This document shows, in pieces, positions 1 to 18,770 of a stretch of DNA of 27,663 nucleotides (its first letter is position 1; every line of letters starts with the position of its first letter). Source of the stretch: a virus. The stretch spans positions 1-27,663 of the IMG/VR virus record IMGVR_UViG_3300030107_004854. The stretch is one strand, 5' to 3'. The translations under genes were made by a program, and so were the position numbers. The notes beneath the pieces were generated by a model that saw only the letters and a list, made by a program, of their open reading frames with translations, had not been told where the DNA came from and did no database searches.

Positions 1-1078
1 CTTGTGTTTGTCCTGGGCCTGGGTTACAACCACCATCACCTTGTATCGCAGCAGGAGTAAATCCATCAGCTAAAAATCCAGGATTGTAGTTATTTGCCGA
101 TGAATCTAGTGGACAACCATACTCTTGACAACAACTAGTATCACCCCAAGAAGGGTGTAGACCAGCACCTTGTAATGGAGGTGAACCTGTACAATCGTTA
201 CCACTACTAGGGTCGTAATTAGGAGCATTAGGATTTAAACACATAGCAGCAATCGTAGGGAACTCACAACAACCATTATTTCCAGGTCCTGTACATTCAT
301 TACCAGGTGTATTATCACAGCCCATGACTTGAGCATCACAAGCTTGTAAGTTCACACCTGATGTTACTGGTATATAGTTTAATGCTTGAGGAATTGTACA
401 TCCATATACTACGTTTATGTTTGATTCACACTGCGTTGAATTAACAACTGTAGTAGGCGCGCCTGGTAATGTAGCGTAATTTTGTGCCCAATTTGTATTA
501 GCCCAAACATGATATAAAGTACCAGTATCACCAGTAACAGCGTCCCACCCAGCTTCGTCTATTTTAGCTTGACTAAAACTAAGATCAAGTGGATCAGAAC
601 AAAAATTCCAAACACAACTACCATCGTCTACGTTAACAGGTGGTATTAAATTACCACCATAATTATCAGCATTATAAGCATGTACAAATCCAGTGTCACC
701 TTCTCTTCCTAAGCAACCATACACCTCAGTGATACACGAACCATCGTCTTCAACAGCGGCTGGGTTATAATTGTAAGCCGTAGAATCTGTACAGCCCGTG
801 ATAAAAGGAATACAACTATTATCATCTACTATAGCGCCTGGATATAAAACATTATATGCCGTGGCATCAACTGAAAACAAAGTTGGATTGTAAGCTGTTG
901 GATCTGTACAACCATACCATCTACAACTTCCATCTTCTACCGTATGAAACGTACTATAATTATTTGGAATAGCCTCGGTGGTAGCGTTCATGCAGCCAGC
1001 AATACCAGCGATACAACTACCGTCGTCAACATCAGCTCCAGCATTATAATTACTAGCAGTTGGATCTGTACATCCCCA
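1..1078 (-). repeat. Degenerate GCTDPTA...DDGSC protein-repeat tract
   Basis: Within the giant tail gene, from the Trp codon at 1078 down to the window edge, the translation cycles through units such as WGCTDPTASNYNAGADVDDG-SC, YGCTDPTAYN and TGCTDSTAYNYNPAAVEDDG-SC. At least five units end in a DDGSC, DDNSC or EDGSC motif; later units degenerate into Cys-rich variants (GCC, SCC, GGC). The repeats are at protein level and too diverged at DNA level to be a DNA repeat array. This motif is common in secreted or surface proteins of marine Bacteroidota. The paired cysteines and Asp clusters suggest disulfide-stabilised, possibly calcium-binding, beta modules; that structural reading is inference. 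Confidence 0.8.
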
Positions 1079-4000
1079 GACTAAAGCTGGAGATGGAGTT
1101 TCGTTTAATATACCTAAACCTTGTATGGCTAAACTTCCTTGATCAAAAGTAGAAGTGTTGTCTTCTTGTACTATTATAGAATCACCAGCAAGGCTTACAT
1201 CTTGCCCTTTTATATAATTAAACCATTTACCTTCTTTTTTAATAAACTCGTTTAAACTACCTTTTTCTAAGTCGGTCACTATGTTAGATACATACCAACC
1301 TTTCTTTGCTTCTAAATTATAATATTGATTATCTTGATAGTTAAAAGTAACTTTTGAATCACTACCCTCGTAGTTTAAAGTATTAAAAGACTTAACTACA
1401 CCAGGACTATCGTTTAAAATAACATTTATACTAGAATTTTGAGTAGTAGTAACTGATCCATAAAAAGTATTTCTATCCACCTCCTCATCATGATGTTTCC
1501 ATATTTTACCATTTAAAAAAGTATAATAATCACTAGCACAACTTATACCGTCTTCAGGTATAAATGATTTAAAACTAACCCAACCTCTTACGTCTTCTTT
1601 AAATGTAACTGTTTTAGCAAAGTTTTCATCTACATTTTTTAACGTTATATTATATTCACTTTTTTTATCATCAAAACTACCAATTATTTTTTTAGATATT
1701 TTTAAATTATCTTTAAACCAATCTTTCATACCATGATCAGATATAGGTGTCAATCCATCTACAGATAATCTTACAATAGAACCTCTTACTTTGTCAGAAA
1801 AATAAGCTCTATATGCGTCCGAGGCAAAAGAATCTGGATCTTTAGATATACCATATTCTCCAGAATAAGGAATTGCTGTTCCTAAAACCTTACTAGTTGC
1901 TGTTATTTGTTTTTTACCATCAGCGTTAAATAAAGCATCTTTATTAGCTTGTATTTTTAATACTCTATCTTCACACAAAGCTAATAAGTCACCACTTTGT
2001 CCCCAACCAGCATGTAGTTTTTGGATACTACCATAACTAGGGCTTAAATCTTTAGTTATGTTTTGTCCTTGTATAAATTGATTTAAATTATTAACTCCAG
2101 AATTTGAATTATAAACACCAGAATATATTAAACCATATTTTCTTTTTTCGTTATCATAACCTTCTTCTAATGTTGCTGACACTTTAGGACCTTTGTCAAT
2201 AAATACAGAGTTAAACGTATCCCTTATTCTATTAGATTCTACACCATTACCAAAAGAATAGCAGTTATGCCAACCTAAACCTACTGGTTGTTGATATATA
2301 TCAGGTTTTAAACGTACGAAAAAAGAAGAGTTAATAGACGTTATAACTGTAGGTGGTCCAGTACCAAATATTGATGGAAATGTTAAATCACTTGTTGTTA
2401 TTGGCTCTGCTAAACCATCGTATATAGCTGTAGTATAAGATCCATCAGATCTTAAAAAAGAAAACTGTTGTTGACCAACCATAAAATCGTCAATAACAGG
2501 TTTGTCTAATTGAACTATATTATTACTCCAACCTACTACTTTAGCTACATCATTACCACCTGTTGTATATATAGGATTTGGATCTGTACCTAACGTAGGC
2601 GTTGAAACTATAGTACCAACTGGCGCGAAAGCGTAACTTGATTTATTTAAAAGGTTAACAGGTAGAGTATCACTAGCCTCGTGAAAAATATTTAAATCGG
2701 TGTTTTCTTTTGATTCTGTTTCAAAAACAGCAGGATTTTCTGGAAAAGTTTGCTCTGTAGCGTCTTCAACATAATGCAAGCTGAGTATTTCTATAGGACA
2801 ATTAAAACTTGAGTCTGCTATTTTTATTCCCCCAGATCCGTCGGCTTTTGGATCATCTATTGGATCATACACAGTTGTATCTATTACTTTATCTAATTTT
2901 AACCTCCAAGTAATACGCCTATTGTAATACGCTTGCGCCTGGTGAAGACGATACATGTTGGCATCTACACTAGTGGTGGTGCTACTAATTCCGGAACCAT
3001 CGTATATGTAAAAAGGAAATTCAAATTCATCTGGGTTAGAGTTCCAAGTTTTACCCATCGTATCTTCTGCATAGTTTAGTTTGTAATATTTTTTAACACC
3101 TGTTATTTTGTATATTGTATGTTTTGGATCTCTTTTAAATCTTATGTGATTACCTATTATTAAATTATTAGCAAATTCTATATCTCTAGGCGCGGCATTT
3201 GTACTATTAATTGTCCAGTACTCTTCCCACCGTTGTGCAAACTCATTAAACATCGTTGCATAAGAAAAACCAGATGGTGGGTTTGTAACAACTGCAATAT
3301 CCGCGGGGTCTAATTCACTTTCAAAAAATTCATTAGTGGAGTTAAACGAAAATGGAGATAAATCTGTTAAGGTGGCAGAGTCTGGCTTTGCATTATATCC
3401 AGGTGAAATAAAAGAAATATCTATTTCATTACCGTTCACACCTTTTCCAGTTGTATAATATTCGTAATTACTAGTGTCATTACCATGTCCTAAACCATCA
3501 ATAGGGCCAATAGGAGGAGTAACATCAGGCGATGAAAGAGGCTGAATATTTTTATCGTGCTCCCAAATTGTGTTTTTGTTGTGCTTAATAGAAGTTTCGT
3601 TTGATGACTCAAGGTGATAACCACCATACGTCGTTGAACCACCAGCAAAATAATAATTACCATATCCACCTGCTTTTTCATAACCTTCACTAAAATTTCT
3701 TCTACCCCACAAAGGTTCTTCACCAGTAGCAAAAGCTTCGTCTATAACCCATCTTGATGATTCAAAAGTTGTGTTTAATTTCTTATGTATTTCACGCCAA
3801 ACTAAAGCGCTCCAATAAACGTTTAAATCAAGTGGTTGGTCTGGAACTGGGTTCGTATAATCCCCCGCTGTATTTGTTTCACCTAAAACAGCGTTTCCAT
3901 CAAAACCATTAGAATTAAAATGAGCAATAGCAGCATTAGCTTGAGATTTACTAACACCTGAAGAAGTAACATCCTCATAATTATAATCTTTTATATAACC

Positions 4001-7000
4001 TAAGTTAGCAGCTCCAATAACACGTAGATTAGGATTTGTACTTTGGTTTACTATAGCGTTGTCAATATAAGCGTCTTTAAGTATTTTTACAAAAAATCTA
4101 CCTTGAAATACAGATTTATTTTGAACAATGTCTTGCCCTATTTCTAAAACTAATTGCTTGGAATTATCATCAAGATTTATTAAATCACTCGCGTCTATAG
4201 TACCAGCGATAGGAAGCCCACCACCACTATCGGTTGTAAAATCAATATCAGTTTTAAGTGGGGTTTTTAGTTTTATTATATATCTATCGATAGTTTCCTC
4301 TGTTCTTACAATATTATCTATTTCATACCAGTTAGAAATATCTTGTTCATCACCAGCTTCATCAACACTTCTTATTCTTAAAAGAAGAGGATTGTTAACA
4401 GATGCGCCACCACCACCACCTGGTGAAACGGTTGTAGTTGTACCGTCTGTTGTTGTTTCACTACTATCTGGCGAATTATGTCTTTTATGAAAATTCTCTA
4501 GTAAAGTATTATTTAAAACACTAGCACTTATATGCAGCTCGTTTTGACCAAAAACCGGTATAAAATCTTCTGAATTTTGTGGGGCCCCTGATTCTCCCAC
4601 AAAAACATCGTTAGCACCACCCGCAGAAGCACTATTTTGAGCAGAACCTAACACAACTCTTCTAGTTTTTATAAACTCAGGTGCTTCGTTTTTAACATCT
4701 ATAACTTTGTATTCTTCTGTGGTTAACTCTGGATCATTTGAGTTGAATTTCTTTTTTAAAAACAATGTGGTTTCTAAGTCTATTTTATTTCTATCATTAG
4801 AAGCAAAAGAAAGCCAAAGATTACCATCTTCAGCAGGAAACCATCTATCTAAAGATAAATTATAGTACTCTGAAGAAGTTTCTTTTATATAAAATTTTTG
4901 ATATATAGCCCAGTTAGGAGGATTGTGGTTTGTTTTTACTTCCAATTGGGTTGTTGAAGCTGCATCTAATTTACTAACGGATAAAGAACCGGTTAAATCA
5001 GTTACAACAGGGGATTGTCTATTGTAAATATCTGTATAAACAACACCTATTTGATAATTTTTTAAAGATTTAATAGATTTAAAATTATTGTTATTCCTGT
5101 TTTTTAAAGCAACGGTAAAGTTAGGTCTAACATTTTTTAAACTATAATTTTGCTCGTAATTACCATATATAATTCTACTACCACTAATCTCTTGAGCCAA
5201 AGCTCTTTTTGGAACAGTGTCAAAAGATCTTATTAGTTGACTTGAATCTAATAAAGCTTTTATAGTATCTTGTTTTATAGTGTAAGAATTACTTATCCAA
5301 TAGGTGTCGCTTGGGTTTATTTCATCAACGAGGTAAACATTAGGTGAATCAACATCTTTGTATAATATATCTATTTGTTTTACATCTTTAGGTATATTAT
5401 CTGGTACAATTTGTTTTATTATTAGCTCTCTAAGTTTATTTTCCATTCCCAAGTTATAACCCGAGTTAGGTGTATAACTATTATTATAAAAATTTGAACT
5501 TTCTTGATCCCAAGATCCTGGTAAAAAAGCCACTTCAGAAAAAGGTCCAAAACTAGAATACTCATTGTCTTTGTATTTCCATCTAAACGCAAATCTAGGA
5601 AATTTTAGTTTATATAACTTATCATAACTTTTATCTATATCTGTTACGTAATCTGGAGTAATATTAACGTTTTGCGATGCTTGTGTGCTAATACTTATAA
5701 TGTCACAAGTATAGGTACTTGAAGCGGTGTCTATTTGTTTGATAGTTAATCTTACATCATAATCGTTTTCTAAAGGTAATAAATCTTCTCCAGGAACACC
5801 TAGTTTTAACTTTATAACGTCTCCAATTTCATAATTTAAACTACCACTACCAATAGATGTTATTGTAATATCTATAGTGTCATTAGGTTGAACATCATCA
5901 AAATTAAAAGAGGTAAAACCATATGAATTACCCGTTTTTTCTCCCACCATTTCAAGCGTTGGAGCTTGTAGAGGTGGTTTTTTTATAACAGTAATATGCT
6001 CTTCTTCTACTTTTATATTACTATTAAAAATAATACCTCGTTCTTCATTTACCAATCTTGTAGCTGAAGGAGAAGAAGGATTTTGAACAGTACCTAACAA
6101 ACTGTCTTTTATATTTATTTTTTTAGGTTCAGTTTTTCCATCTGTCCAAAATAACATATCATCAACAATATTTATACCAGTTATACTATCGTTATGATTA
6201 AAGTTTAATGTTCTTGGACCAGTGAAAAGTAATGCGCTATAAGAGGAACCACTATACCCAGAGGCAAGATTTAAAACATTTCCTAAAAATATTTTTTGAT
6301 TTTGTAATATAAGTACCGAACCAACAGTGCTTATTCGCATACCGTTTACAAAACCTCCCACTTGCCAACCCGCTATATTCGTTTGATCATTACAGTCTTG
6401 TAATTTAATAGAATTATTTTGATGATCTATATAACTAACACAAAAATCACCATTTTGCATACCATTGTAATTTGGTAATAAAGTTACCACACTTCCAAGA
6501 AGCAAACTGTTTACAAGAAATAAATTTGGATCTGGAAATGTTATTAATCCAGTAGCAACTTGAGTTGTAACTTGAATCGTGAGTGTTATAGTGGCTGTTA
6601 TTGTCTTACCATTGTCCCAACTTTGAGAAACGTAGTCTGGTGAAGAACCACCTGTCCAAGACGAAGCAATTGGAGGATCTAAATAAGCATCTAGTCCAGA
6701 AATAGGTGTATCTAACTCAACTCTAACACCCGTCATACCTAAACCGTCAATAACTAGATTTGAAGGAGACGCGTTTATCATTTGATATGTAGAAGACAAA
6801 CCAGGTTGATCAGAAAATAAAGTTATAGATCCACCAATTAAATCTGAAATATTACCAATGTAATTTTTTATATAAACATGACTATAACCATCTGAACTCC
6901 AAACAGTGCTAGCATTTGGTGCATTACCCCAGTCTCCATTTGTTGGAATGTAAATAGCATCCCCTTTTTTAACATGATGGCTAACATTACCTATGATAAA

Positions 7001-7612
7001 CTCAAGTGTTGAATTAGCTGAAACAGGTATACCTTCAAACTCAACAACAAAAGGCTGTGGTGTGCTTTTATTAATTACAGTAGAAGTGTTAGACGTGTTG
7101 CCATTAGGATCTATACCCGTAACTTGCCAACCAGGTTGTATTTCAGAAAACATAGTTTGATTTGAAACAGTGAGTTCGTTAGTTGAAGTAGTAGACGAGT
7201 TTGATTGAGAAAAACCAAATTTATCAACAAAAACTTGTTCACATCCAGTTGAGTTATCAGGTGTTGGAGTGGTTTTACGTAATATTTGATCTGTTAAATT
7301 TATAGGAGTTGATAAAGCGCCAGGATTGGCTAAAGAAGCTGGTGATGATAATTTCTGACCAGAAATCATCCAATATAAAGTGTCGTTTTTTTCATCAGAA
7401 ATAGATCCAACGGTAAACGCACTGCTTGGTACAAAGTTAGTAGGACAACCGTTAGAATTACCAGCTAAATTTTCAACAGCACCAACATTGGAATCATCCG
7501 AAGTTGATACTTGTATATTCATTGCATCTCTATATTCACCTTTTGGAATAAGTCTTTCGTCAAGATCTTTATTCATTTTTCCACCTGTAAAGGTGTTTTT
7601 AATCTCTGGCAT
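1..7612 (-). CDS. Giant phage tail/structural protein with GCTDPTA-type C-terminal repeats (3' end outside window)
   Basis: One uninterrupted reading frame runs from the ATG at 7612 to the window edge, at least 2,537 codons, with the same frame confirmed at both ends. It opens MPEIKNTFTGGKMNKDLDER, followed by LIPKGEYRDAMNIQVS, a start I associate with large tail or DNA-stabilisation-like proteins of marine phages. Long beta-rich stretches follow, then a Gly run (PGGGGGA), a conserved-looking block around GNGVESNRIRDTFN, and finally Cys-rich GCTDPTA/DDGSC repeats from about residue 2,179 onwards. The gene starts three bases after the stop of the ring-protein gene at 7616 and lacks a Shine-Dalgarno sequence. 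The role is inferred: distal tail, fibre or receptor-binding structure on the virion. It could be several functional modules in one chain; the true C-terminus is not visible. Confidence 0.8.
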   Translation of the reverse strand, partial: MPEIKNTFTGGKMNKDLDERLIPKGEYRDAMNIQVSTSDDSNVGAVENLAGNSNGCPTNFVPSSAFTVGSISDEKNDTLYWMISGQKLSSPASLANPGALSTPINLTDQILRKTTPTPDNSTGCEQVFVDKFGFSQSNSSTTSTNELTVSNQTMFSEIQPGWQVTGIDPNGNTSNTSTVINKSTPQPFVVEFEGIPVSANSTLEFIIGNVSHHVKKGDAIYIPTNGDWGNAPNASTVWSSDGYSHVYIKNYIGNISDLIGGSITLFSDQPGLSSTYQMINASPSNLVIDGLGMTGVRVELDTPISGLDAYLDPPIASSWTGGSSPDYVSQSWDNGKTITATITLTIQVTTQVATGLITFPDPNLFLVNSLLLGSVVTLLPNYNGMQNGDFCVSYIDHQNNSIKLQDCNDQTNIAGWQVGGFVNGMRISTVGSVLILQNQKIFLGNVLNLASGYSGSSYSALLFTGPRTLNFNHNDSITGINIVDDMLFWTDGKTEPKKINIKDSLLGTVQNPSSPSATRLVNEERGIIFNSNIKVEEEHITVIKKPPLQAPTLEMVGEKTGNSYGFTSFNFDDVQPNDTIDITITSIGSGSLNYEIGDVIKLKLGVPGEDLLPLENDYDVRLTIKQIDTASSTYTCDIISISTQASQNVNITPDYVTDIDKSYDKLYKLKFPRFAFRWKYKDNEYSSFGPFSEVAFLPGSWDQESSNFYNNSYTPNSGYNLGMENKLRELIIKQIVPDNIPKDVKQIDILYKDVDSPNVYLVDEINPSDTYWISNSYTIKQDTIKALLDSSQLIRSFDTVPKRALAQEISGSRIIYGNYEQNYSLKNVRPNFTVALKNRNNNNFKSIKSLKNYQIGVVYTDIYNRQSPVVTDLTGSLSVSKLDAASTTQLEVKTNHNPPNWAIYQKFYIKETSSEYYNLSLDRWFPAEDGNLWLSFASNDRNKIDLETTLFLKKKFNSNDPELTTEEYKVIDVKNEAPEFIKTRRVVLGSAQNSASAGGANDVFVGESGAPQNSEDFIPVFGQNELHISASVLNNTLLENFHKRHNSPDSSETTTDGTTTTVSPGGGGGASVNNPLLLRIRSVDEAGDEQDISNWYEIDNIVRTEETIDRYIIKLKTPLKTDIDFTTDSGGGLPIAGTIDASDLINLDDNSKQLVLEIGQDIVQNKSVFQGRFFVKILKDAYIDNAIVNQSTNPNLRVIGAANLGYIKDYNYEDVTSSGVSKSQANAAIAHFNSNGFDGNAVLGETNTAGDYTNPVPDQPLDLNVYWSALVWREIHKKLNTTFESSRWVIDEAFATGEEPLWGRRNFSEGYEKAGGYGNYYFAGGSTTYGGYHLESSNETSIKHNKNTIWEHDKNIQPLSSPDVTPPIGPIDGLGHGNDTSNYEYYTTGKGVNGNEIDISFISPGYNAKPDSATLTDLSPFSFNSTNEFFESELDPADIAVVTNPPSGFSYATMFNEFAQRWEEYWTINSTNAAPRDIEFANNLIIGNHIRFKRDPKHTIYKITGVKKYYKLNYAEDTMGKTWNSNPDEFEFPFYIYDGSGISSTTTSVDANMYRLHQAQAYYNRRITWRLKLDKVIDTTVYDPIDDPKADGSGGIKIADSSFNCPIEILSLHYVEDATEQTFPENPAVFETESKENTDLNIFHEASDTLPVNLLNKSSYAFAPVGTIVSTPTLGTDPNPIYTTGGNDVAKVVGWSNNIVQLDKPVIDDFMVGQQQFSFLRSDGSYTTAIYDGLAEPITTSDLTFPSIFGTGPPTVITSINSSFFVRLKPDIYQQPVGLGWHNCYSFGNGVESNRIRDTFNSVFIDKGPKVSATLEEGYDNEKRKYGLIYSGVYNSNSGVNNLNQFIQGQNITKDLSPSYGSIQKLHAGWGQSGDLLALCEDRVLKIQANKDALFNADGKKQITATSKVLGTAIPYSGEYGISKDPDSFASDAYRAYFSDKVRGSIVRLSVDGLTPISDHGMKDWFKDNLKISKKIIGSFDDKKSEYNITLKNVDENFAKTVTFKEDVRGWVSFKSFIPEDGISCASDYYTFLNGKIWKHHDEEVDRNTFYGSVTTTQNSSINVILNDSPGVVKSFNTLNYEGSDSKVTFNYQDNQYYNLEAKKGWYVSNIVTDLEKGSLNEFIKKEGKWFNYIKGQDVSLAGDSIIVQEDNTSTFDQGSLAIQGLGILNETPSPALVWGCTDPTASNYNAGADVDDGSCIAGIAGCMNATTEAIPNNYSTFHTVEDGSCRWYGCTDPTAYNPTLFSVDATAYNVLYPGAIVDDNSCIPFITGCTDSTAYNYNPAAVEDDGSCITEVYGCLGREGDTGFVHAYNADNYGGNLIPPVNVDDGSCVWNFCSDPLDLSFSQAKIDEAGWDAVTGDTGTLYHVWANTNWAQNYATLPGAPTTVVNSTQCESNINVVYGCTIPQALNYIPVTSGVNLQACDAQVMGCDNTPGNECTGPGNNGCCEFPTIAAMCLNPNAPNYDPSSGNDCTGSPPLQGAGLHPSWGDTSCCQEYGCPLDSSANNYNPGFLADGFTPAAIQGDGGCNPGPGQTQ

Positions 7613-7615
7613 ATA

Positions 7616-9031
7616 CTAGTGTTTTATCTGCTTAGATTTGCCTCTAAGTATTTGAGTTAATTCTTCTAATTTTATATTTGAAAGTCTTAGTTTTGCTGTT
7701 CTAATAGCAGCAAATCGCTCTTTTTTATATCTTCTAATAACTGATTCTGAAACATCTGTTCTTGTTGATATTATTGCGTATATAATAGATTTATACATCG
7801 CCTCTTCAGCAAACTTATGTACAACCATTTCTCCATCAGTACCAAGGCCATCACTTATATAATCTAAGATCACAGTTTTTCCTGAAATATTAGAACTAAA
7901 ATGTGCTGTATTAAGAACATTATCTATATAAAAAGACCCATTAACCTGAGCATGTTGAGGATCTAATCCGTATCGTTGCCCATTATGTGGCCAATAATTA
8001 TCATCATCGTAATCATCATTATTGTTTTCAGAAGGTGTTGATGATTTATAATTACCCCAAGTAGCAGAACTTTCTTCATCACCAACACGTACAACAGAAA
8101 TGCTTTCTACTTTGTAAACTCCATTATCTGATAAAGTGGTTGGGTGTTTTTGAGATATTATAACACATCCTCTATACGCAAAATTACCAGCGGAAGAAAA
8201 AGTTGCGCTTAAACCGTTTTTACCAGGTATTATTACTTCTGTATGTGTACCATTAGATGTAATAGAACTAGTTTCAGCATAATCTCCATTTTCATCTACT
8301 AAAATAACTTTTAAATTACCAGTAACATATCCACTTATAACTATAGAAACTTGATATGATTCATCAGATCTTATATCTACATCTGTTTGTGTAAACGCCT
8401 GTTCAGAACCAAGATCATAAGCTCTAACACCGTTTTTTTCAAAATGCCACCCTCTTAAAGGATCTCCAGCTTGTGACTGTGGTGATGTAATAAAAGTAAC
8501 AGGCTGATTAACTGAATTTGGTAGTTCAATTCCACCCAGTGAATTAGGAGAGGTATTTAATAACCAACCTTCCGCACTACCATGAAAATTACCATTTGTA
8601 ATTAACTCACCCGCTTGTATTAAATTACCATCATCGTTAAAAAGATACTCACCATCATCATCTGTTTGGTTTTTAATTGGATTTGAAGTTTTACTAGCTG
8701 GATATAAAAGGTGTTTAATTCCAGCTGAATCGACCCAAGATAATTTTGTATAATTAACATAATCTTTTGGTAAGCGCATTTGAAGTGATGCTGAAACTAC
8801 TACTTCTTCTGATTTTAAAGATCTTAAAGTGTCAAAAGATAATTCTTGTAATGCTCTTTGAGCGTGAAATGCAACTTCATTCTTTTTTGTTTTTGGTATA
8901 ATTTTATCCGCACCAACATAGACAAACATAAATTGGTTTATTATGTCGTCTAAAGAAGTAATTTGGTAGTTATGAGCTCCAAGAGCACTGCTATAATAAT
9001 CTACGTCTGATATATTGTCTAATAATCCCAT
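7616..9031 (-). CDS. Ring/tail-adaptor-like structural protein with inserted jelly-roll domain
   Basis: A 471-residue protein. The N-terminal ~130 residues (MGLLDNISDVDYY; FHAQRALQELSFDTL at 55-69; LPKDYVNYTKLSW at 87-99) and the C-terminal ~100 residues (RYKKERFAAIRTAKLRLSNIK, then RGKSKQIKH) look like a helical ring or tail-tube adaptor common in marine phage structural operons. Residues ~142-316 differ: LITNGNF...GW followed by beta strands resembles a carbohydrate-binding jelly roll of the CBM4/9 type. An acidic linker (NNNDDYDDDN, 337-345) follows. It lies between a smaller ring-like gene, four bases away, and the giant tail protein, three bases away. That position fits a neck or tail-hub component. 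The ring assignment is inference from position and recalled family patterns. Confidence 0.6.
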   Translation of the reverse strand: MGLLDNISDVDYYSSALGAHNYQITSLDDIINQFMFVYVGADKIIPKTKKNEVAFHAQRALQELSFDTLRSLKSEEVVVSASLQMRLPKDYVNYTKLSWVDSAGIKHLLYPASKTSNPIKNQTDDDGEYLFNDDGNLIQAGELITNGNFHGSAEGWLLNTSPNSLGGIELPNSVNQPVTFITSPQSQAGDPLRGWHFEKNGVRAYDLGSEQAFTQTDVDIRSDESYQVSIVISGYVTGNLKVILVDENGDYAETSSITSNGTHTEVIIPGKNGLSATFSSAGNFAYRGCVIISQKHPTTLSDNGVYKVESISVVRVGDEESSATWGNYKSSTPSENNNDDYDDDNYWPHNGQRYGLDPQHAQVNGSFYIDNVLNTAHFSSNISGKTVILDYISDGLGTDGEMVVHKFAEEAMYKSIIYAIISTRTDVSESVIRRYKKERFAAIRTAKLRLSNIKLEELTQILRGKSKQIKH

Positions 9032-9035
9032 TTAA

Positions 9036-9794
9036 TTATGATTTTTCTTGCATTATTTGTAATGTTTCCAATCCTTGTGCTTGTTGTGCTAGGTCTGCTT
9101 TTTTCATAGACACACCAGCGTATTTTAATATTTTATATACTAACTCTGTTTCTTCTGATTCATGAAGACTAAAATGTGTTGTTTTAGAAGTATCAGTATC
9201 GTGTAGTGCTTTTCCACCAACCACAAAATAACCCCATTGAGGTTTATTACCTGCGCCACCCGACGGTGATTTTATATATGTATGTCTACCCGCATAAGTA
9301 GGTTTGTTAAATTCTGTTGGATAAATAACAATAGTATTTTCTGACCTTCTAGTAAAAACAGGTCTTAAAAAAGTTGGTTTTGTTAGTGGGCCATGAAACA
9401 TTCTTATAATTTCATCTTCTTGTACTTGCTCTACTAAAATAGGACTATGTGGAGGTATCGCAAAAGTATCAGTTGTACCATTTGTTAAATAAACGGTCCC
9501 TAACCTATAAAGATTAGTACCATTAAGATTAGCATACGTTGTTGCACCCGTAACACTACTGCTAGATTCAAAAAGACTAATTTTTTCATTTAAACGGTCT
9601 ATAGAATCTTGGTATTCATATTGTCTATCATTACTCATAATAGAAAATTTATCTAAATCATAAAAATATTGTTCAAATATTTCTCTTTGAGCTTGATCAG
9701 CATAAAGATTAAACTCCTGTGGAGTTATATATCCTCTTTGCTCTTTATTAGCTATAGCTAATACTTTTTGATACACATCATCTATATTTACCAT
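9036..9794 (-). CDS. Head-tail connector/ring-like structural protein
   Basis: A 252-residue protein. The helical N-terminus (VYQKVLAIANKEQRGYITPQ then FNLYADQAQREIFEQYFYDL) matches the pattern of neck-ring proteins I associate with crAss-like and marine podoviral operons, where the phrase 'GYITPQEFN..ADQAQ' recurs. The middle is beta-rich (residues ~100-175) and the C-terminus is helical. It follows the capsid genes and precedes the larger ring protein, with a four-base gap, so the pair probably stacks below the portal. The start at 9794 has an A-rich leader (AAAAAGAAATT) rather than a canonical ribosome site. No enzymatic motif is visible. The exact ring position cannot be decided from sequence alone. 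Confidence 0.55.
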   Translation of the reverse strand: MVNIDDVYQKVLAIANKEQRGYITPQEFNLYADQAQREIFEQYFYDLDKFSIMSNDRQYEYQDSIDRLNEKISLFESSSSVTGATTYANLNGTNLYRLGTVYLTNGTTDTFAIPPHSPILVEQVQEDEIIRMFHGPLTKPTFLRPVFTRRSENTIVIYPTEFNKPTYAGRHTYIKSPSGGAGNKPQWGYFVVGGKALHDTDTSKTTHFSLHESEETELVYKILKYAGVSMKKADLAQQAQGLETLQIMQEKS

Positions 9795-10928: not shown

Positions 10929-12431
10929 TTAGTTAATTAAAAAGAAGTTATTAGCCCCTTGAGTAACTAAACATCTTTCAGATAAATAATGCATTTCCAT
11001 AGCATCTAAATCAGATGTTACAGCTCCAACAGAACCAGTAACCCAAGTCTTCATTTTTCTAGACTCAGTTTGCGAAGCTCTATATCGAACGTGTAAAAAT
11101 GGACGTTTCATATTTTTACCTAACATTTGGTCATAAACTGAAGAAACACCAGCTGGAACTAAAACGCCTCTAATGGCGTTAACAGTATCTCTATCGTTGA
11201 TAGCACCTCTTGTTCCAAAATCATTTAAGTACTTCCAGTCAGACTTGTAGAAGTCATAAGAACCTCTTCTGAAACCAGAGAAACCTAAGTTTAATGCCAT
11301 ATCTTCTGAGTTATCAAACACTCCGTAAGAAGTACCACCAGCTCCGTAAGAATTCATTGAAGCTAACATGTCATCTATTGCTAAAGCAGTTGCTCTATTA
11401 ACAAACATCATGTTTTCTTCGATAGCTCCATTTTTATCAAGTTCCGCTAACATAGCGTCAAACTCAGCTAAATCAGTAGCAGCGTTAACACCAGTTATAC
11501 CAGAAGTTTGATTACCTCTAGATTCTAAAGCAGCGAATAAACCTTCAGTACCGAAGTTATCAGTAGAAGTGTCACCTAAGAATGTATCAGCATCAGATTC
11601 ATCAGTATCACCCATGATACCCTCAATGCACATCATCTCGCAGTAATCTGCAAAACGCATTTTTGTTTCAGATTCAGCTTTAACATACCATAAATAACCA
11701 CCCGTTCCATCTTCATTAGCAACTTCAACCCAACCTATTTGAGCAGCATCAGATCCAGAGATCTCATACTTATCTTTAATAATAACTGGTTTATTGCTAA
11801 AAGTTTTATGAGTTGGTTTAATAGCACCTGATCTACCGGTGTCACCTTTTGCATACTCAGATCCTATAACTAATATAGTATGAGTAACATCGTTATCAGA
11901 ACCTTGAGCGAACCCAGCGTTTGCTAAAGTAGCTGTAGTATTTCCAGCGTCATAAGGAGTTACACTAATACCACCTGTTACAACACCACCTGAAGACGCT
12001 ACAGCAGTAACTAATAGTCTCGCAGTTGTATTTGAATCAGATAATAATAATACATCATTTACTCTAATACCGTGAGTAGTTTGAGCAGCGTTACCATCAA
12101 TGTCAGTTTCAACTTGTAATTGACCACCGTTGTTAGAACCAGAAGCTTGGTTGTCATCATGTAGTACAAATCCTTTGTACGCTAAATGTAATCTACCTTG
12201 CTCAGCCCAGATAACTTGATCTGATTGCATTGCTTCTTCAGCTCCGACTTGAGCTAAGAATCCAGAAATCGTACGGTTTCCAAAAGCCTGCGCTTCTTTT
12301 TCCATAAGTTCTGGTAGATATTGAGACGCCCAAGTACCATCAGTACCTCCGTCTGCAAAATCTATATAATTTGATTGTAGTATCTGCTGCACTGGAGCAG
12401 CAGTCATACCACTTGCACTTGTAATTGCCAT
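10929..12431 (-). CDS. Major capsid protein (HK97-fold, crAss-like type)
   Basis: A 500-residue protein forming the head shell. The N-terminus (MAITSASGMTAAPVQQILQS then DGTWASQYLPELMEKEAQAF) and the C-terminal block (SYDFYKSDWKYLNDFGTRG, KRPFLHVRYRASQT, KMKTWVTGSVG, HYLSERCL) match the pattern I recall for capsid proteins of crAss-like and related marine Bacteroidota phages. Its position fits: the order is terminase, portal, scaffold, capsid. An inserted, Thr/Gly/Ala-rich beta region at about residues 95-190 may be a surface-exposed domain. The leader is A/T-only (AAAACAAAATTAAAAA before ATG) with no Shine-Dalgarno. A strong terminator follows, consistent with separately boosted capsid expression. 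HK97 fold is inferred from family membership, not directly seen. Confidence 0.88.
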   Translation of the reverse strand: MAITSASGMTAAPVQQILQSNYIDFADGGTDGTWASQYLPELMEKEAQAFGNRTISGFLAQVGAEEAMQSDQVIWAEQGRLHLAYKGFVLHDDNQASGSNNGGQLQVETDIDGNAAQTTHGIRVNDVLLLSDSNTTARLLVTAVASSGGVVTGGISVTPYDAGNTTATLANAGFAQGSDNDVTHTILVIGSEYAKGDTGRSGAIKPTHKTFSNKPVIIKDKYEISGSDAAQIGWVEVANEDGTGGYLWYVKAESETKMRFADYCEMMCIEGIMGDTDESDADTFLGDTSTDNFGTEGLFAALESRGNQTSGITGVNAATDLAEFDAMLAELDKNGAIEENMMFVNRATALAIDDMLASMNSYGAGGTSYGVFDNSEDMALNLGFSGFRRGSYDFYKSDWKYLNDFGTRGAINDRDTVNAIRGVLVPAGVSSVYDQMLGKNMKRPFLHVRYRASQTESRKMKTWVTGSVGAVTSDLDAMEMHYLSERCLVTQGANNFFLIN

Positions 12432-13696: not shown

Positions 13697-16117
13697 TTAT
13701 CTAGGGTCAAACACGCCTAAGTCAATTCCGCCTCCTAGTATATCATTACCTGAAGACTCAAAGTTTTTAGGTGGTTTTCCACTTTTTCTTTGTTCAATCA
13801 TTTCTGATTGTTGTGTAGCTTGTATCTTAGTTCTCTCGTCTTTACGATCTTCTTTTTCTTTTTCTCTACTTTTCATGCCCTCAACTTCAACACCTTTAAG
13901 CTGCATGTTGTATTGAAACTCTAGCGCCATTAACTCTTTTTTCATTTCAACCTCTTGTAACATTTTTTGAGACTCAATTTGAGCTTCCATTTGCATAAGT
14001 TCCGCTTTGCTAGCGTTTAAGGCTTGGTTTTTCTGAACATCAGCCTGTGCAGCTGCTTGAGCCGATTGCTGATTCAATTGTGCTTGCCTTTCCATGTTTT
14101 GCTGTTGCATGGCTTGGTCTCTGTCTTGTTTCTTTTTTCTACGTATTTTTAAAAGTTGATTAGCTAGTTTTATGTTACGTATTTCTCTTAAGTCAATAGC
14201 ATCTTCTAATTCTATTGTTTGTTGTTGTAAAGCCATTTGAATATTGTTTTCTAAAATAGCTTTTTCTTCTTCGTCAGGAGTTAATTCTAAAAATATACCA
14301 AAATCATATAAATGCAAATTAGCCATTTCTTCTAATGTAGCTACATTGTGAACACCTATAGCTTGTATAAAAGCATCTTTTGTTGGTGAATATTCTATAA
14401 TATCAGATATTCTAAGCGATAAACACTCTGCTGTTTCAGCCGTTAAATATAATCCAGATTGTAATATATGCCTTGTTGCTGTATTAGAGTTGGCCGCAGC
14501 TAACTTTTGTATTCCAACCAAAGCGTTTTTATCTGGCATACTACCATCTCTAGCCTCATTAAGCCCTGTTACATCACGTATCATTTGTAAGTAATAATTA
14601 TAATTACCTATAAGTGCTTGCATTTTGTTACCACCAGATCCAGATGTTATTTCTTGAATAGGTACTTTACCAGGATTCATGTCACCTTCTTGTGTAAAAG
14701 ATCTACCTATTACAGAACCAGTTTGAAAAAACATATTTAAAGCTTCTTGTGGATTATAGTTTGTACCATTACCTAAATCAACTTCAGCTAAACCATCAGC
14801 ATCCAAATAAACACCATCTGGAACCATACGTGCCATTACTTGTTGTAATTTTAAATGTGTAAGTTGTATCATGTCCGCAAAACCAGTTATACGTTTTACT
14901 AGCGAATCAATTTTACCATTATACATTCTTGGTGCTACAATAGCATAATTCATTTTAACTTTTGTATAATCGCTTTTTGGGCGCATCATGTTTTTAGCCA
15001 TTTCCCATTTAAGCAATCTATCAGTACCAAGCACAATAGCACCATCGTAAACACACTCTATAGATCTTAATAGTCTAGAATATCCACCCTCCATATCACT
15101 TGGTGGATTAAAAGAATCATCTTTAGGTATAATTTTATCAGCACCAGTAGCTACTTCTTTTATTTTGTAAACCTCGTTCATATAAGTTTTATAATTAAAA
15201 TATAAAACTTGAACCATATTATTATCTTCTTTGCCTTGAGACCATTTAGTGTTATGGTTGTTAGTATTATAAGATTTACTTTCAACTATTTCATCGAGAT
15301 CGCTTTCGGTTAAATGTGGAAATTGTTTTGCTAATTCATTTATAGGAATTCTTTTAACTTCACCCACATAATATATATCATCAAAATAAGGTGAGTCTGT
15401 GTAAGAATATACAAGATTTGCAGGGTCAACATAGTCTATTACAACACCCTCTGAAGTATTAAAAGAGTTTTTAACAGCACCAATACCTAAAACTGTTAAA
15501 TCATAATAAAACCGCTTTTTAATTAACTCGTATTTACTACCTTCAAATAAAACATTTAAAGCTTGTTCTTCAGCAAGCTCAGCAGCTTGTTTATAAGAAA
15601 TCTGCATGTGAAGTTCTAGTTCTTCATTTGTTTCAGGTAGTGTTTTTTGATTGCTTTTTCTAAGGTCTATACCAAGATTACTCATGGCAAACTCATTAAA
15701 CTGTTGCGATTGCATATCACTTATTATATTCTCCATGTATTTAGTACGTTTACTAACACCATGTGGGTCTTGAGAAAAAGCTTTTATATCATAAGTTCTT
15801 TCAGCTATACCATTTACAACTATATCTACAAACTTAGGTATTATTGGAACGGGTTTCCAGTCTAAATTTAAATAGGACAAATCACCATTTATAGATAACT
15901 CATCCTTATATTTTTGTATAGATTGTTCGCCTCTAGCGTATAGTCTTAAACTATGAAAATTATCATGATTAGATTTGTATCTATTTATACTTCTATCATC
16001 ATTAAACCATTCTGTTTCTATAGCCTTAGCTACTTTTAAACCATATTCATAACTCAACTTTTCAGCGTCACTAACGGTTTGACTTGGAAAATAACTTGTA
16101 ATGCCAGACTCTGCCAT
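13697..16117 (-). CDS. Portal protein
   Basis: An 806-residue protein directly downstream of the large terminase. Residues ~90-120 (LDWKPVPIIPKFVDIVVNGI) and the following blocks (YVDPANLVYSYTDSPYFDDI; RLLKWEMAKNMM; MARMVPDGVYLDADGLAEVD; RDVTGLNEARDGS) show the wing/stem pattern of large dodecameric portals of the crAss-like type. The last ~150 residues are Gln/Lys/Glu-rich helix (MQQQNMERQAQLNQQSAQAA), fitting a coiled barrel extending into the head. It would form the ring through which DNA enters and to which the neck attaches. The start at 16117 is five bases after the terminase stop, with an A/T leader. Length and neighbours make this one of the safest calls in the window. Confidence 0.87.
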   Translation of the reverse strand: MAESGITSYFPSQTVSDAEKLSYEYGLKVAKAIETEWFNDDRSINRYKSNHDNFHSLRLYARGEQSIQKYKDELSINGDLSYLNLDWKPVPIIPKFVDIVVNGIAERTYDIKAFSQDPHGVSKRTKYMENIISDMQSQQFNEFAMSNLGIDLRKSNQKTLPETNEELELHMQISYKQAAELAEEQALNVLFEGSKYELIKKRFYYDLTVLGIGAVKNSFNTSEGVVIDYVDPANLVYSYTDSPYFDDIYYVGEVKRIPINELAKQFPHLTESDLDEIVESKSYNTNNHNTKWSQGKEDNNMVQVLYFNYKTYMNEVYKIKEVATGADKIIPKDDSFNPPSDMEGGYSRLLRSIECVYDGAIVLGTDRLLKWEMAKNMMRPKSDYTKVKMNYAIVAPRMYNGKIDSLVKRITGFADMIQLTHLKLQQVMARMVPDGVYLDADGLAEVDLGNGTNYNPQEALNMFFQTGSVIGRSFTQEGDMNPGKVPIQEITSGSGGNKMQALIGNYNYYLQMIRDVTGLNEARDGSMPDKNALVGIQKLAAANSNTATRHILQSGLYLTAETAECLSLRISDIIEYSPTKDAFIQAIGVHNVATLEEMANLHLYDFGIFLELTPDEEEKAILENNIQMALQQQTIELEDAIDLREIRNIKLANQLLKIRRKKKQDRDQAMQQQNMERQAQLNQQSAQAAAQADVQKNQALNASKAELMQMEAQIESQKMLQEVEMKKELMALEFQYNMQLKGVEVEGMKSREKEKEDRKDERTKIQATQQSEMIEQRKSGKPPKNFESSGNDILGGGIDLGVFDPR

Positions 16118-16122
16118 ATTTA

Positions 16123-18339
16123 TTATTTGATTATTTGTGAATTAGTTCCAGTATTACTATACTTGGAAATATTTATATTTAGTTTACGTTTTTCTATTTT
16201 TGCGTTTGGAGCATACAAATGTCTATTATTTGCCATTATAGCTAAACCAGAACTTATAGTTGCATCAAACTTTGTTCTTTTGTTTATATCAAATTTACTC
16301 CAATCATTTAACAAATCGTTGAAGTATAAATCTCCAAATGTTCCATCTTGTCTTACACCAACGTGATCTTGTATATACATTTCTATTGCAGCAGCGTGAG
16401 CTTGTTTTATATCTTCACTTGAGTTTGGTATACCACCCACTTCTTTTTCTGCTACAGATAATTTGTTCCATACTTTATCTGGCCTATTCATAGAAAAACC
16501 TCTATAACCTCTTCTTCTTAAATAATATAAAAGACGAGGTTTGTTGTTCTCTGCGAGTATTGGCATACCATAAAATACTAACGCCATTAATACATCTTCA
16601 AAGAATATTTCAGCTGTAGGTGGTCTTGATAAGTATTCTAAAAAGAAGCTGTTCGCAGGAGCGTCCTCCATACTAAACCTGGTTAAGCCGTGTAATGCTC
16701 CTTTAGATCCTTCTCCATCTACAGTCCCTGATATATCATAAGAGTCACAACCAAATGCTCCCATGTGTTCATTACCAGGGTGTTTTATACCGTTTTTTAA
16801 CACCACTCTATTTTGTAGTTGTTGAGGTGGAACCCAACTAACTTTAAATCTACCTTTTGGATCTGGATAGAATATTACTTGTGAATCTTTTATACCATTA
16901 ACCCATTGAAAATTACCAGTTGTAATTCCTAAAGTTTTAGACATTTCTTCGTTATAATCTATCTGCTCGTATATTTTAACGAGATTAAAAATAGAATTTT
17001 TAGTCTCATCTCTAAACGCGTGTTCTTCAGTTCTTGGAAACTGGCGGTAAAACTCATTTAAAGCGTCTTGATCACCTTTTAAACCTTCTGCTTCGTTATT
17101 CCAATGGTCAACTACACCTACATCTATTAGTTCACCGTCTGGGGCAAACACATCTGTGTCAGGAGTAATGAACACTGGAATTCCGTGCTCATCAATAAAT
17201 CCCTCGTAGTTCCATTCCATTGGGATAAACAAAGAGTATAAACCAGATTTTGTTTGACCGTTTCTATTTCGTTTAGTGACATCTGATGCATTGTATAGTT
17301 TTTTGAAGTTACCTCCACCTTTGTCTAGGGCGTTGGAAGTTGAACCCATCATACACTTACCTATAATTCTACTACCTAATCTAAGACATGTTTTTGTAAC
17401 ACGCCAGTTGTTTAATATATTATCAGGTCTTTCCCATTTACCACTTTCATCATGTACTAATAACGCTAGTTTTTCACCATCATAACTATTATCGCCAGTA
17501 TTTTTCCAGTCAATAGTAGTATCTAAACCTTCTATTTCCTCCATACCGTCTGTAGCTGACATTTTCTTTCTTGTAAACTTACTAGCTGGTACTCTATATG
17601 CAAGTTCAGATTTCGGACGGTCCATACCGTCTTGTATAGGTTTAAAAAAGAAAGGATAATTTATACTTATTGGTACAACTTTATCTGTAAACATTTTTTT
17701 AGCATCAGCACCTGTTTTAGATAGTATACCATATCTACTATCACTCGATATAGTGGCTAAATTAACTGTTTCTGCAGATGACATGAACGAAAAACCTGAT
17801 CTTCTGTTCTTTAGGTAGCACATACCATAACATCTTTTATCTGCTTTACAAGCTTCCCAAAATATAAAAAACAATCTATTTGCCTCTCTAAAATCTGGGG
17901 CTCCAACATCAATTTTACTCCATTGTAAATACATATAGTGTGTCCCTACTATATATGTTGGTTTACCATTATTTGTAAACCAAAAACCTTCATCTCTACG
18001 TTTAAACTCCTCATCTATATAGTCGTACCACTGCTCTTTTTGATCTTCTGGATAATTACGCCAATCAAATATATTTTTAAGACGAGATAATTCTTTAGGT
18101 TGATCAAACTTAACCCACTTGTTTTTATTGTTGCTATACACACTCTTTGGAACTTTCGGTAGTGCAATGGCCAAGTTTTGTATTTCTATTATTTCACCTA
18201 TCTGTCCGGTTTTAGATATAACAACAACATCATGCTCTTTATTATATCCGTATTTCCACTTTTTACCTTTGTTAAGTCTACTTATAGTGGTTTTTTTTAT
18301 AGGTTCAATTATTTTAACCAACGTTTGCTCGTACTTCAT
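16123..18339 (-). CDS. terL: Terminase large subunit (packaging ATPase/nuclease)
   Basis: A 738-residue DNA-packaging motor. The ATPase half shows a deviant P-loop region (YLKNRRSGFSF, ~175-185), a Walker B with catalytic acid (LALLVHDESG, ~291-300) and a coupling motif (MGSTSNA, ~331-337). The nuclease half contains GAFGCDSYDISG (~528-538), with an Asp suited to metal binding, and later acidic candidates around 577-600. The N-terminal ~110 residues are an extension before the ATPase core. Its ATG overlaps the preceding SET-domain gene's TAA as TAATG, implying translational coupling. The portal follows after five bases. The P-loop lacks the usual GKS/T and reads R-R-S-G-F-S, a departure also tolerated in crAss-like terminases as I recall. 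Confidence 0.87.
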   Translation of the reverse strand: MKYEQTLVKIIEPIKKTTISRLNKGKKWKYGYNKEHDVVVISKTGQIGEIIEIQNLAIALPKVPKSVYSNNKNKWVKFDQPKELSRLKNIFDWRNYPEDQKEQWYDYIDEEFKRRDEGFWFTNNGKPTYIVGTHYMYLQWSKIDVGAPDFREANRLFFIFWEACKADKRCYGMCYLKNRRSGFSFMSSAETVNLATISSDSRYGILSKTGADAKKMFTDKVVPISINYPFFFKPIQDGMDRPKSELAYRVPASKFTRKKMSATDGMEEIEGLDTTIDWKNTGDNSYDGEKLALLVHDESGKWERPDNILNNWRVTKTCLRLGSRIIGKCMMGSTSNALDKGGGNFKKLYNASDVTKRNRNGQTKSGLYSLFIPMEWNYEGFIDEHGIPVFITPDTDVFAPDGELIDVGVVDHWNNEAEGLKGDQDALNEFYRQFPRTEEHAFRDETKNSIFNLVKIYEQIDYNEEMSKTLGITTGNFQWVNGIKDSQVIFYPDPKGRFKVSWVPPQQLQNRVVLKNGIKHPGNEHMGAFGCDSYDISGTVDGEGSKGALHGLTRFSMEDAPANSFFLEYLSRPPTAEIFFEDVLMALVFYGMPILAENNKPRLLYYLRRRGYRGFSMNRPDKVWNKLSVAEKEVGGIPNSSEDIKQAHAAAIEMYIQDHVGVRQDGTFGDLYFNDLLNDWSKFDINKRTKFDATISSGLAIMANNRHLYAPNAKIEKRKLNINISKYSNTGTNSQIIK

Positions 18340-18770
18340 TATAGTTGGTTTTTAGGATTTTGGTCTTTATTAAACAAGTTTTTTATTTTATCTATAGCTT
18401 CTTTAAAAGCAGGGTTTTTATCAGTATGATCTCTATAATCTATTAAAATTTCTTCATTACGAAGAATATCTTTTTCTGCTATAGCCACTAAATTATTATC
18501 TTTTTTATTATAAAATTTAGCATTTTTATCTTTAGAATGATTAACCCATCTTCCTAGCACCGTTCTATAATAATTATCAATAGTCACATCGCCTATAACC
18601 TCTCCTTTTTTTATATTTTTAGAGGCAAAAACTCCAATGTTATGTATATTAGACTTTTCTTTATGGTAATTAAAGTGTTCGACCTCTATAACGTTATCCA
18701 TGTTGATAAGTATCCACGCCTGTTCTTCTGTAAGCCCAATCTCATTAAGCCATTTTTTATAATCGCTCAT
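18339..18770 (-). CDS. SET-domain protein, putative protein-lysine methyltransferase
   Basis: A 143-residue protein with a compact SET core. Residues 45-60 read IGVFASKNIKKGEVIG, 77-86 NHSKDKNAKF, and 96-112 AIAEKDILRNEEILIDY. These correspond to the G-x-G-V-F-A...KGE strand, the NHS..PN SAM-binding motif and the GEEL..DY motif with its catalytic tyrosine (Tyr112). The first glycine of GxG and the glycine of GEE are both Asn here, so the copy is slightly degenerate. It starts within ATGA of the putative small terminase stop and overlaps terL by TAATG, so it is firmly inside the packaging operon. The substrate is unknown; a phage structural or packaging protein, or a host protein, are both possible. 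Confidence 0.78.
   Translation of the reverse strand: MSDYKKWLNEIGLTEEQAWILINMDNVIEVEHFNYHKEKSNIHNIGVFASKNIKKGEVIGDVTIDNYYRTVLGRWVNHSKDKNAKFYNKKDNNLVAIAEKDILRNEEILIDYRDHTDKNPAFKEAIDKIKNLFNKDQNPKNQL

Follow-up and report, generated by a model that had tools for sequence, protein, structure and literature searches.

A predicted muzzle protein of a Callevirus- and Elemovirus-related phage carries Bacteroidota-type cysteine-rich repeats in a variable slot

INTRODUCTION

The muzzle, or tail plug, of crassvirus phicrAss001 is gp44 (PDB 7QOK/7QOL), a protein of 1,371 residues that has no repeat array at its end and whose gene follows a structural gene, that of ring protein gp43. In its treatment of gp44, PMC10172136 places the length variation of this protein in the crass and IG2 regions and not in a C-terminal slot, and it describes disulfides in the phicrAss001 tail barrel and hubs. 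For the T7 nozzle, the structural account in PMC6702177 presents the part between the propeller and the C-terminal platform as an outer-surface fiber dock. The window analyzed here, a virus fragment record of 27,663 bases, likewise has its muzzle gene after a structural gene; unlike gp44, its visible part has an array of short repeats in a Cys-rich C-terminal extension.

RESULTS

The single frame that the first-pass annotation reported, with no strand given, as open over 7.6 kb was confirmed. It runs on the minus strand from an ATG at 7612 to base 2, encoding 2,537 residues without a stop before the contig end (Table 1). By homology, this ORF is a predicted crassvirus-type muzzle protein (tail plug). 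Searches of solved structures with the window core and with the C-terminal profile returned nothing. For a relative of the window, L017, an AlphaFold2 model of the C-terminal 330 residues had the phicrAss001 muzzle as its best match (7qok_A, E 7.3e-5, probability 1.00 but TM 0.24); 7qol_P also matched (E 2.3e-4), and the next-best match was at E 0.027. A profile of this region aligned to gp44 residues 1133 to 1280. The nearest named relatives examined belong to Pervagoviridae or Elemovirus or are unclassified, and with regard to Crassvirales, they are placed in Caudoviricetes without an order. As judged from its genes, the phage is related to Callevirus and Elemovirus and more distantly to crassviruses. 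The first-pass annotation had described a giant tail protein without recognizing it as the muzzle.

TABLE 1 Features of the window
Feature	Coordinates	Strand	Residues and basis
Predicted muzzle (tail-tip plug) ORF	2..7612	-	2,537 residues visible, 3' open; phrog_14478 virion structural protein, E 6.6e-111; crAss_MUZ_C
Conserved muzzle core	1112..7612	-	Residues 1-2167, final motif ...AIQGLG; homologue alignment up to about residue 2167
crAss_MUZ_C (PF25729)	1208..1477	-	Residues 2046-2135; E 1.8e-6, 28.8 bits versus gathering score 27 (passed)
Cys-rich acidic C-terminal extension (cassette)	2..1111	-	Residues 2168-2537; 24 Cys in 370 residues, D+E 40, K+R 3; incomplete at contig end
Repeat unit 1	1013..1075	-	Residues 2180-2200, GCTDPTASNYNAGADVDDGSC; profile 40.5 bits
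Repeat unit 2	923..997	-	Residues 2206-2230, EDGSC at end; repeat profile
Repeat unit 3	812..913	-	Residues 2234-2267, GCTDPTA at start, DDNSC at end; repeat profile
Repeat unit 4	734..796	-	Residues 2273-2293, DDGSC at end; profile 40.1 bits
Repeat unit 5	614..718	-	Residues 2299-2333, DDGSC at end; repeat profile
Degenerate Cys-rich sequence	2..601	-	Residues 2338-2537; 14 Cys; one weak profile match at 2458-2470
Virion structural protein, upstream of muzzle gene	7616..9031	-	phrog_13977; structural gene in equivalent place in Callevirus and Elemovirus
Virion structural protein	9036..9794	-	phrog_14543; synteny with Callevirus and Elemovirus
Probable major capsid protein	10929..12431	-	phrog_13704; Callevirus gene at equivalent position annotated major capsid protein
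Portal protein	13697..16117	-	phrog_6547, E 1.5e-151
Terminase large subunit	16123..18339	-	phrog_6681, E 1.1e-171

Cys content is 6.49% in the extension compared to 0.42% in the core. The repeat unit is about 25 residues long, with the consensus GCTDPxAxNYxPxAxxDDGSC; three of the five units in the window end in DDGSC and one each in EDGSC and DDNSC, and the GCTDPTA pattern occurs twice in the extension. The unit profile gave seven matches of at least 8 bits, two of them parts of unit 3 and the last at residues 2458 to 2470, whereas 1,000 shuffles of the extension gave no match of at least 8 bits. The earlier count of at least five DDGSC-type units near the visible end therefore held, with five at residues 2180 to 2333. 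Neither Pfam nor NCBIfam had a model that matched the repeats of the window, and Pfam searches for a BACON domain were negative both for the window protein (E 0.1) and for ten cassettes (E 0.05). A solved-structure search with the extension returned nothing, and its structure model was poor (mean pLDDT 45.6), with no convincing structural match (best Foldseek E 4.4, no Z of at least 2). A plasmid search gave no match, and literature searches on the repeat motifs turned up no relevant title.

The contig ends within the extension, and the window's own C terminus is missing. To recover this end, viral contigs were scanned with the window extension, but no relative was found; therefore, the nearest complete relative, L003, was used as a stand-in. 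Its extension has 538 residues and, by eye, is Cys rich throughout with a Gly-rich end.

The muzzle locus was compared among 77 loci, the window and 76 relatives. The end of the core was set by the QGxG motif or otherwise by BLAST; it was set too late in 3 of the 77 (L022, L039, and L050), so part of their units was counted as core. By profile count, at least two repeat units directly follow the core in 24 of 77 loci (the window and 23 of 76 relatives), and the remaining loci have other modules or none. A C-terminal domain of about 110 residues is fused to the muzzle in 6 of 76 relatives (core end located) and is a separate downstream ORF in 54. It was not found in the other 16, of which 10 are cut by the contig end and six are closed loci with 9 to 2,465 nt of downstream sequence (2,465 in L030, 1,437 in L065, and 963 in L009). 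PHROG 18548 spans both parts, its positions 2 to 88 being matched by the window core and 136 to 239 by the L017 domain. These counts indicate, at the level of sequence, that the array sits in a variable slot ahead of the last muzzle segment, a segment usually encoded separately. The spacing differs with the length of the extension. Where the extension exceeds 400 residues, 18 of 23 loci have the start of the domain ORF close to the muzzle stop, at -60 to +22 nt; where it is shorter than 50 residues, the domain ORF lies 1.1 to 2.4 kb downstream in 23 of 24 loci (4.4 kb in L035), and other ORFs intervene in 23 of the 24. When encoded separately, the domain would complete the fold of the muzzle in trans. 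The profile of this domain by itself gave no match to gp44, and with VIA-align, the slot domain gave middling Z scores (at most 7.8) with tail and other components of phages as well as with the F1/V1 ATPase beta-barrel, a common arrangement. That the repeat tract precedes a further conserved muzzle segment in relatives had been missed in the first reading of the window.

On the core tree, the repeat trait requires nine changes, at least five of them forced by well-supported branches. The median identity of matched stretches was 30% for cassettes versus 48% for cores. No recent exchange of cassettes between distant cores was detected: cassettes were more alike than cores by more than 8 points in only 3 of 1,410 cassette alignments (two L007/L021 repeat-on-repeat matches and the close pair L028/L031), and recent swapping between distant phages was rejected. 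For repeat-number variation between strains, L011 and L075 are the only close repeat-carrying pair that reaches the array. They share 87% identity in the core and 77% in the extension (70 aligned residues, L011 being cut after 129), and by eye their units correspond. The contig end cuts 7 of 25 repeat extensions versus 4 of 52 others (Fisher P = 0.03), but per residue there was no difference (P = 0.76), and contig breaks were therefore rejected as a sign of variable arrays. A diversity-generating retroelement was also dropped as a candidate, as RVT_1 reverse transcriptase had no match in 20 relative records, all of them fragments.

Some cassettes contain partner modules. The terminal domain of the complete L007 cassette is related to part of a bacterial protein, L233, and adjoins an Lcl_C match; this end domain had no Pfam match of its own and no convincing solved structure. 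A fibronectin type III domain (fn3) was found in the L014 cassette. L233 itself combines repeats, an Lcl_C-like domain, and fn3, modules that also occur in phage cassettes. In L003, there was no recognizable terminal binding domain. The type IX secretion system (T9SS) sorting domain did not exceed the cutoff in ten phage cassettes (one weak match, E 0.011, in L048), and PF18962/TIGR04183 had no match in the complete relatives L003 and L007, the window's own end being missing.

The first-pass annotation had read the repeats as a host-style module that points to the host group. The first part stands, the repeats being of a kind carried by proteins that Bacteroidota export. With a probe of phage repeats, 27 of 27 confirmed loci in a species-genome collection were titled Bacteroidota, a T9SS sorting domain was present in 4 of 8 scanned repeat proteins from genomes and viral contigs (IMG/VR contigs accounted for three of the four), and modules of the L233 type are shared. 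The second part was not supported. A consensus array matched 28 records in a phage collection, of which 26 are Synechococcus phages or cyanophages (genome duplicates included), one is a marine single-cell virus placed in Kyanoviridae, and one is an uncultured phage; flavobacterial phages were absent from the 28, and the host therefore cannot be identified from the repeats alone. Repeats in phages of unrelated hosts, which the annotation had counted against its own interpretation, were thus found in part, in the Synechococcus phages. The repeat is also carried by varied viral proteins. Better indicators of the host are the muzzle and the terminase: for each, 87 records have a homologue, of which 86 come from phages that infect Flavobacterium, Cellulophaga, Tenacibaculum, or Maribacter and the other is without a host. 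By homology, both point to Flavobacteriia.

DISCUSSION

Adsorption appears to be the likeliest role of the array, although a putative one. We hold with moderate confidence that the cassette array in the muzzle slot forms exposed arms that contact the host surface or position a binding domain and so aid adsorption. This proposal starts from computed features, namely, homology, the position and variability of the slot, the separate coding of the last segment in most loci, composition, and repeat distribution. The slot between the muzzle core and the last ~110 residues holds a variable cassette, which would be present in six copies per tail if the muzzle is a hexamer as in phicrAss001. The arms would project from the muzzle collar as acidic, disulfide-containing, and probably Ca2+-loaded structures, and they may touch the host surface or keep a terminal binding domain close to it. 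Such contact would help with adsorption and gate triggering. An adhesin logic for the cassettes is seen in the L233-related end domain of L007, the Lcl_C match, and the fn3 domain of L014. Because the cytoplasm in which phage virion proteins are made is reducing, any disulfides of the array would have to form late.

A more elaborate version of this adsorption role is offered tentatively. Cassettes may occupy a surface loop before the last muzzle strands, with the next gene providing these strands and a small beta-barrel in trans. With its C terminus thereby freed, the muzzle could bear long, exchangeable arms, of which the GCTDP array is one example; each virion would have six of them, placed on the collar where the fibers dock in T7. 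Full folding of the arms might have to await lysis and the oxidizing, Ca2+-rich conditions of seawater. If so, a gate-keeping tail protein would gain long arms without breaking its fold.

Four alternatives were considered. First, the array might be only a spacer or armor that stiffens or shields the muzzle collar through disulfides and Ca2+, with no receptor recognition itself. A pure role of this kind is possible because the L003 array ends without a recognizable binding domain; the strongly acidic, Cys-rich composition and the related phages that manage without an array also fit it. However, cassettes are less conserved than cores, and some arrays bear an adhesin-like fn3 or Lcl_C-like end domain; we consider this reading rather doubtful. 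Second, the array might imitate host surface proteins so that virions stay on Bacteroidota surfaces or pass unnoticed there, rather than being specifically adsorbed. The repeat consensus is indeed shared with Bacteroidota proteins, some of which have a T9SS sorting domain, but cyanophage structural proteins share the repeat though their hosts are Synechococcus, and mimicry has no known mechanism of benefit; we consider it improbable. Third, and no more probable, short Cys/Asp loops might drift among marine phages and bacteria as a widespread tail module, their presence in Bacteroidota being incidental. The predominance of Synechococcus phages among the matching phage records and the variety of viral carriers would be expected from such drift, but not the exclusively Bacteroidota titles of the confirmed genome loci or the similar partner domains that accompany the repeats both in phage cassettes and in a Bacteroidota protein. 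Finally, a misjoining of a bacterial repeat gene to the phage gene during assembly, to which the contig end inside the repeats might point, is refuted by the independent relatives: 24 of 77 loci, each on its own contig, show repeats joined to the core at this point, and per residue, contig breaks are no commoner in repeat extensions than in other extensions.

To our knowledge, few receptor-binding parts have been described for marine flavobacterial crAss-like phages. A defined muzzle slot with variable, partly host-style modules is a concrete place to seek them, and it provides a sequence marker for finding such parts in metagenomes. Host prediction from the GCTDP repeat alone is unsafe because cyanophages carry it.

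Among known phages, Callevirus (Cellulophaga phages phi38:1 and Calle_1; Pervagoviridae) and Elemovirus have a homologous muzzle and the same gene order, capsid to muzzle, as the window. In Calle_1 and elemoD 13-5B, however, the core and the C-terminal domain form one protein (1,324 and 1,493 residues, respectively) without repeats. The nearest named record by terminase, MW202828 from Manatee Spring (64.5% identity), has a homologous muzzle whose extension contains Cys and whose remaining part is encoded downstream; unlike the window, it is split earlier in the core and, by eye, has no DDGSC-type unit in the extension. Kyanoviridae structural proteins (S-CAM3, S-H9-2, and AG-345-P14) carry one to three copies of a GCTDP-type unit, and in two annotated records the genes lie amid tail collar and short tail fiber genes, but the protein is unrelated to the muzzle, the host phylum is another, and the units are few. 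The GCTDP proteins of Bacteroidota have the consensus and the fn3/Lcl_C-like neighbors in common with the phage cassettes; some have the T9SS sorting domain (TIGR04183), which was not found over the cutoff in the ten phage cassettes. The tandem BACON repeats of crAss-like tails are likewise Bacteroidota-type surface repeats on tail proteins, for which the account in PMC6949934 infers host binding. BACON is an Ig-like domain, whereas the window has a ~25-residue Cys/Asp repeat in a defined muzzle slot of marine phages.

A muzzle protein with a repeat extension

The window is a virus fragment of 27,663 bases. The frame at the contig end, which the first-pass annotation called a giant tail protein, is a single long open frame and is more exactly the tail-closing muzzle. 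It matched phrog_14478, a virion structural protein (E 6.6e-111), and crAss_MUZ_C at residues 2046 to 2135, the latter narrowly above the Pfam cut-off. Two structural proteins, a probable capsid protein, portal, and terminase are encoded 5′ of it, and the gene order over the stretch compared, from capsid protein to muzzle, is common to the window, Callevirus, and Elemovirus. Family, domain, and gene order together therefore identify the muzzle. In the phage collection, 87 records carry a homologue, namely, phages of Flavobacterium (68), Cellulophaga (15), Tenacibaculum (2), and Maribacter (1) and one hostless record; terminase homologues gave an identical tally by host, the nearest being the hostless MW202828.

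The motif AIQGLG closes the conserved core at residue 2167. The DDGSC-type repeats noticed at the visible end of the frame were confirmed in the 370-residue extension beyond it, as five units at residues 2180 to 2333 followed by a degenerate Cys-rich stretch. A unit profile gave seven matches of at least 8 bits in the extension, two being parts of one unit, compared to none in 1,000 shuffles. The extension contains 24 Cys residues (6.49%, compared to 0.42% in the core) and 40 Asp and Glu compared to 3 Lys and Arg, a composition that would suit disulfides and Ca2+ binding. As a query against the phage collection, it matched no record.

Features of the window, with positions in nucleotides
Feature	Position	Strand	Remarks
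Muzzle ORF	7612 (ATG) to 2	minus	2,537 residues; no stop, open at contig end
SET-domain protein	18339-18770	minus	PF00856, E 2.2e-11; immediately upstream of terminase gene
Concanavalin A-like protein (Laminin_G_3)	20119-20859	minus	E 8.5e-10
Small protein with HExxH-like stretch HEMRHATD	22066-22500	minus	By eye; no Pfam match
GroES and GroEL (Cpn10, Cpn60), adjacent	24773-26579	minus	Phage encoded

The phage GroES and GroEL possibly aid in folding giant virion proteins; Cpn60 was also seen in 12 of 30 relative records, both with and without repeats. A SET-domain protein is unusual in a phage, and the Laminin_G_3 protein is a possible further candidate for binding.

Repeats occupy a variable slot in the muzzle

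The relatives analyzed were the best 80 of 595 confirmed loci from a viral-contig scan, a nonrandom sample; the core end was located in 76, and the remaining four break off within the core. With units counted both in muzzle fusions and in the next ORF, 24 of 77 loci (the window plus these 76) carry at least two units past the core and 28 at least one; others among the relatives listed end at the core or bear other modules.

In six of these best 80 (L017, L019, L020, L033, L038, and L080), all without repeats, the muzzle runs on into a C-terminal domain of ∼110 residues. Three flavobacterial isolates were examined (Calle_1, elemoD 13-5B, and Panino, whose muzzle is additionally split further upstream), and all have the domain likewise fused at the muzzle end. 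By domain profile, 54 of the 76 loci encode it as a separate ORF 3′ of the muzzle, and 16 gave no match; the contig end truncates 10 of these 16, and the other 6 cover 9 to 2,465 nt of downstream sequence. Among the best 80 loci, the domain ORF starts −60 to +22 nt from the muzzle stop in 18 of 23 with extensions over 400 residues (exceptions, L048, L050, L060, L063, and L082), compared to 1.1 to 2.4 kb away in 23 of 24 with extensions under 50 residues; other ORFs intervene in 23 of these 24 (none in L049). Of 12 repeat carriers with a separate domain (regular-expression count), 9 show the −60 to +22 nt spacing, and L015, L039, and L050 have an interposed ORF. This placement and spacing put the repeats in a variable slot, after the core and before its last segment. 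PHROG 18548 covers both flanks of the slot, aligning with the window at positions 2 to 88 and the L017 domain at positions 136 to 239, and was matched by 19 of 20 C-terminal domain rows.

By eye, a fibre-like protein bearing a YYNF-type motif shifts position around the domain gene, lying 3′ of the muzzle in L003, L008, L067, and L075, 5′ of the domain gene in L028 and L041, and seemingly fused to the muzzle in L059. The muzzle extension at L048:14782-18084 terminates in a Hint/intein-like domain (PT-HINT, E 1.2e-9), the last residues being VHNKG, and a Por_Secre_tail match in its middle is weak and below cut-off (E 0.011).

The C-terminal region profile aligns with residues 1133 to 1280 of the 1,371-residue phicrAss001 muzzle gp44. 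The domain by itself had no profile match to gp44, whose last strands resemble those of the Calle_1 domain by eye only. The final 330 residues of L017, modeled with AlphaFold2, had a mean pLDDT of 64.9, with mostly 87 to 95 in the slot domain (∼residues 221 to 290). The top two solved matches of the model were the phicrAss001 muzzle (E 7.3e-5 and 2.3e-4; next, 0.027), with low TM-scores (0.24 to 0.25) that leave relative domain placement unfixed. The T7 nozzle and the crassvirus muzzle share a propeller and a ring-joining domain (PMC10172136), and in T7 the outer-surface fibre dock lies between propeller and C-terminal platform (PMC6702177). By this analogy, the collar would be where the cassette emerges from the muzzle.

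Two named complete genomes, Panino (L252:3922-7835) and MW202828 (L253:3501-9521), have muzzles split elsewhere than at the slot, the remainder being encoded downstream; in MW202828 the muzzle piece bears a Cys-containing extension and another gene is interposed. These splits support, short of proof, the idea that a two-polypeptide muzzle may function.

Changes of the repeat trait

On a quick-search core tree of 75 rows (22 with repeats and 53 without), the trait required nine changes, at least five of them forced by well-supported branches. It was clustered, compared to a shuffled mean of 19 changes, and profile-based labels (23 with, 45 without, and 7 omitted) again gave nine. Across 1,410 cassette alignments, cassettes were less similar than cores where alignable (median identity, 30% compared to 48%), and there was no sign of recent exchange between distant phages. 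The 20 records scanned yielded no reverse transcriptase.

Other carriers of the repeat

The proposal that the extension is a host-style module was right in kind. Probing species genomes with L007, a related muzzle locus, gave 37 candidate stretches, and all 27 confirmed ones were in Bacteroidota-titled records. In a sample drawn from that phylum only, 22 of 296 genomes matched a profile of the unit; 12 of the 22 have a single unit in an open frame of 322 to 349 residues, possibly one recurring family, and in L240 the unit follows a signal-peptide-like start. However, the inference from repeats to host group, also proposed in the first-pass annotation, does not hold on its own. Of the 28 phage records that the consensus array matched, 26 are Synechococcus phages or cyanophages, one is a Kyanoviridae single-cell virus, and one is an uncultured phage, with no flavobacterial phage among them; the L007 array matched seven records of similar kind.

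At least 119 viral-contig stretches contain the exact GCTDPTAxNYN pattern; 80 of them were examined, a few on contigs shared with the muzzle relatives. Among the 80 listed, the pattern lies inside a muzzle ORF in 10, 29 have T9SS-like protein ends (regular expression), and 41 are mixed, including 2 with a muzzle piece in a different ORF of the locus. A T9SS sorting domain was present on four of eight repeat proteins scanned, one from a genome (L085) and three from IMG/VR contigs (L117, L123, and L183), the latter confirming by profile all three IMG/VR ends scanned. On IMG/VR contigs, such proteins reflect either bacterial sequences contaminating the collection or exported proteins that phages encode. 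Many of them, among L113 to L192, have signal-peptide-like starts, and L099 and L103 have a lipoprotein-like start (...SSSCRKEEGCMNPLAI) with repeat units immediately past the presumed lipobox cysteine.

In the bacterial protein L233, repeats occur together with an Lcl_C-like domain (residues 199 to 276, below cut-off) and a weak fn3; fn3 is also present in phage L014. The L007 end domain is 42% identical to L233 at ∼residues 123 to 223 (range derived from coordinates), and the overlap with the Lcl_C match is therefore only partial.

Role and precedent

We infer that the repeat extension is most likely an exposed arm for host contact. A DDGSC/GCTDP repeat in a muzzle is not known to have been described, and searches of one open-access literature collection gave no such description. 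The nearest precedent is the BACON repeats of crAss-like tail proteins, for which the host-binding role is likewise inferred (PMC6949934).
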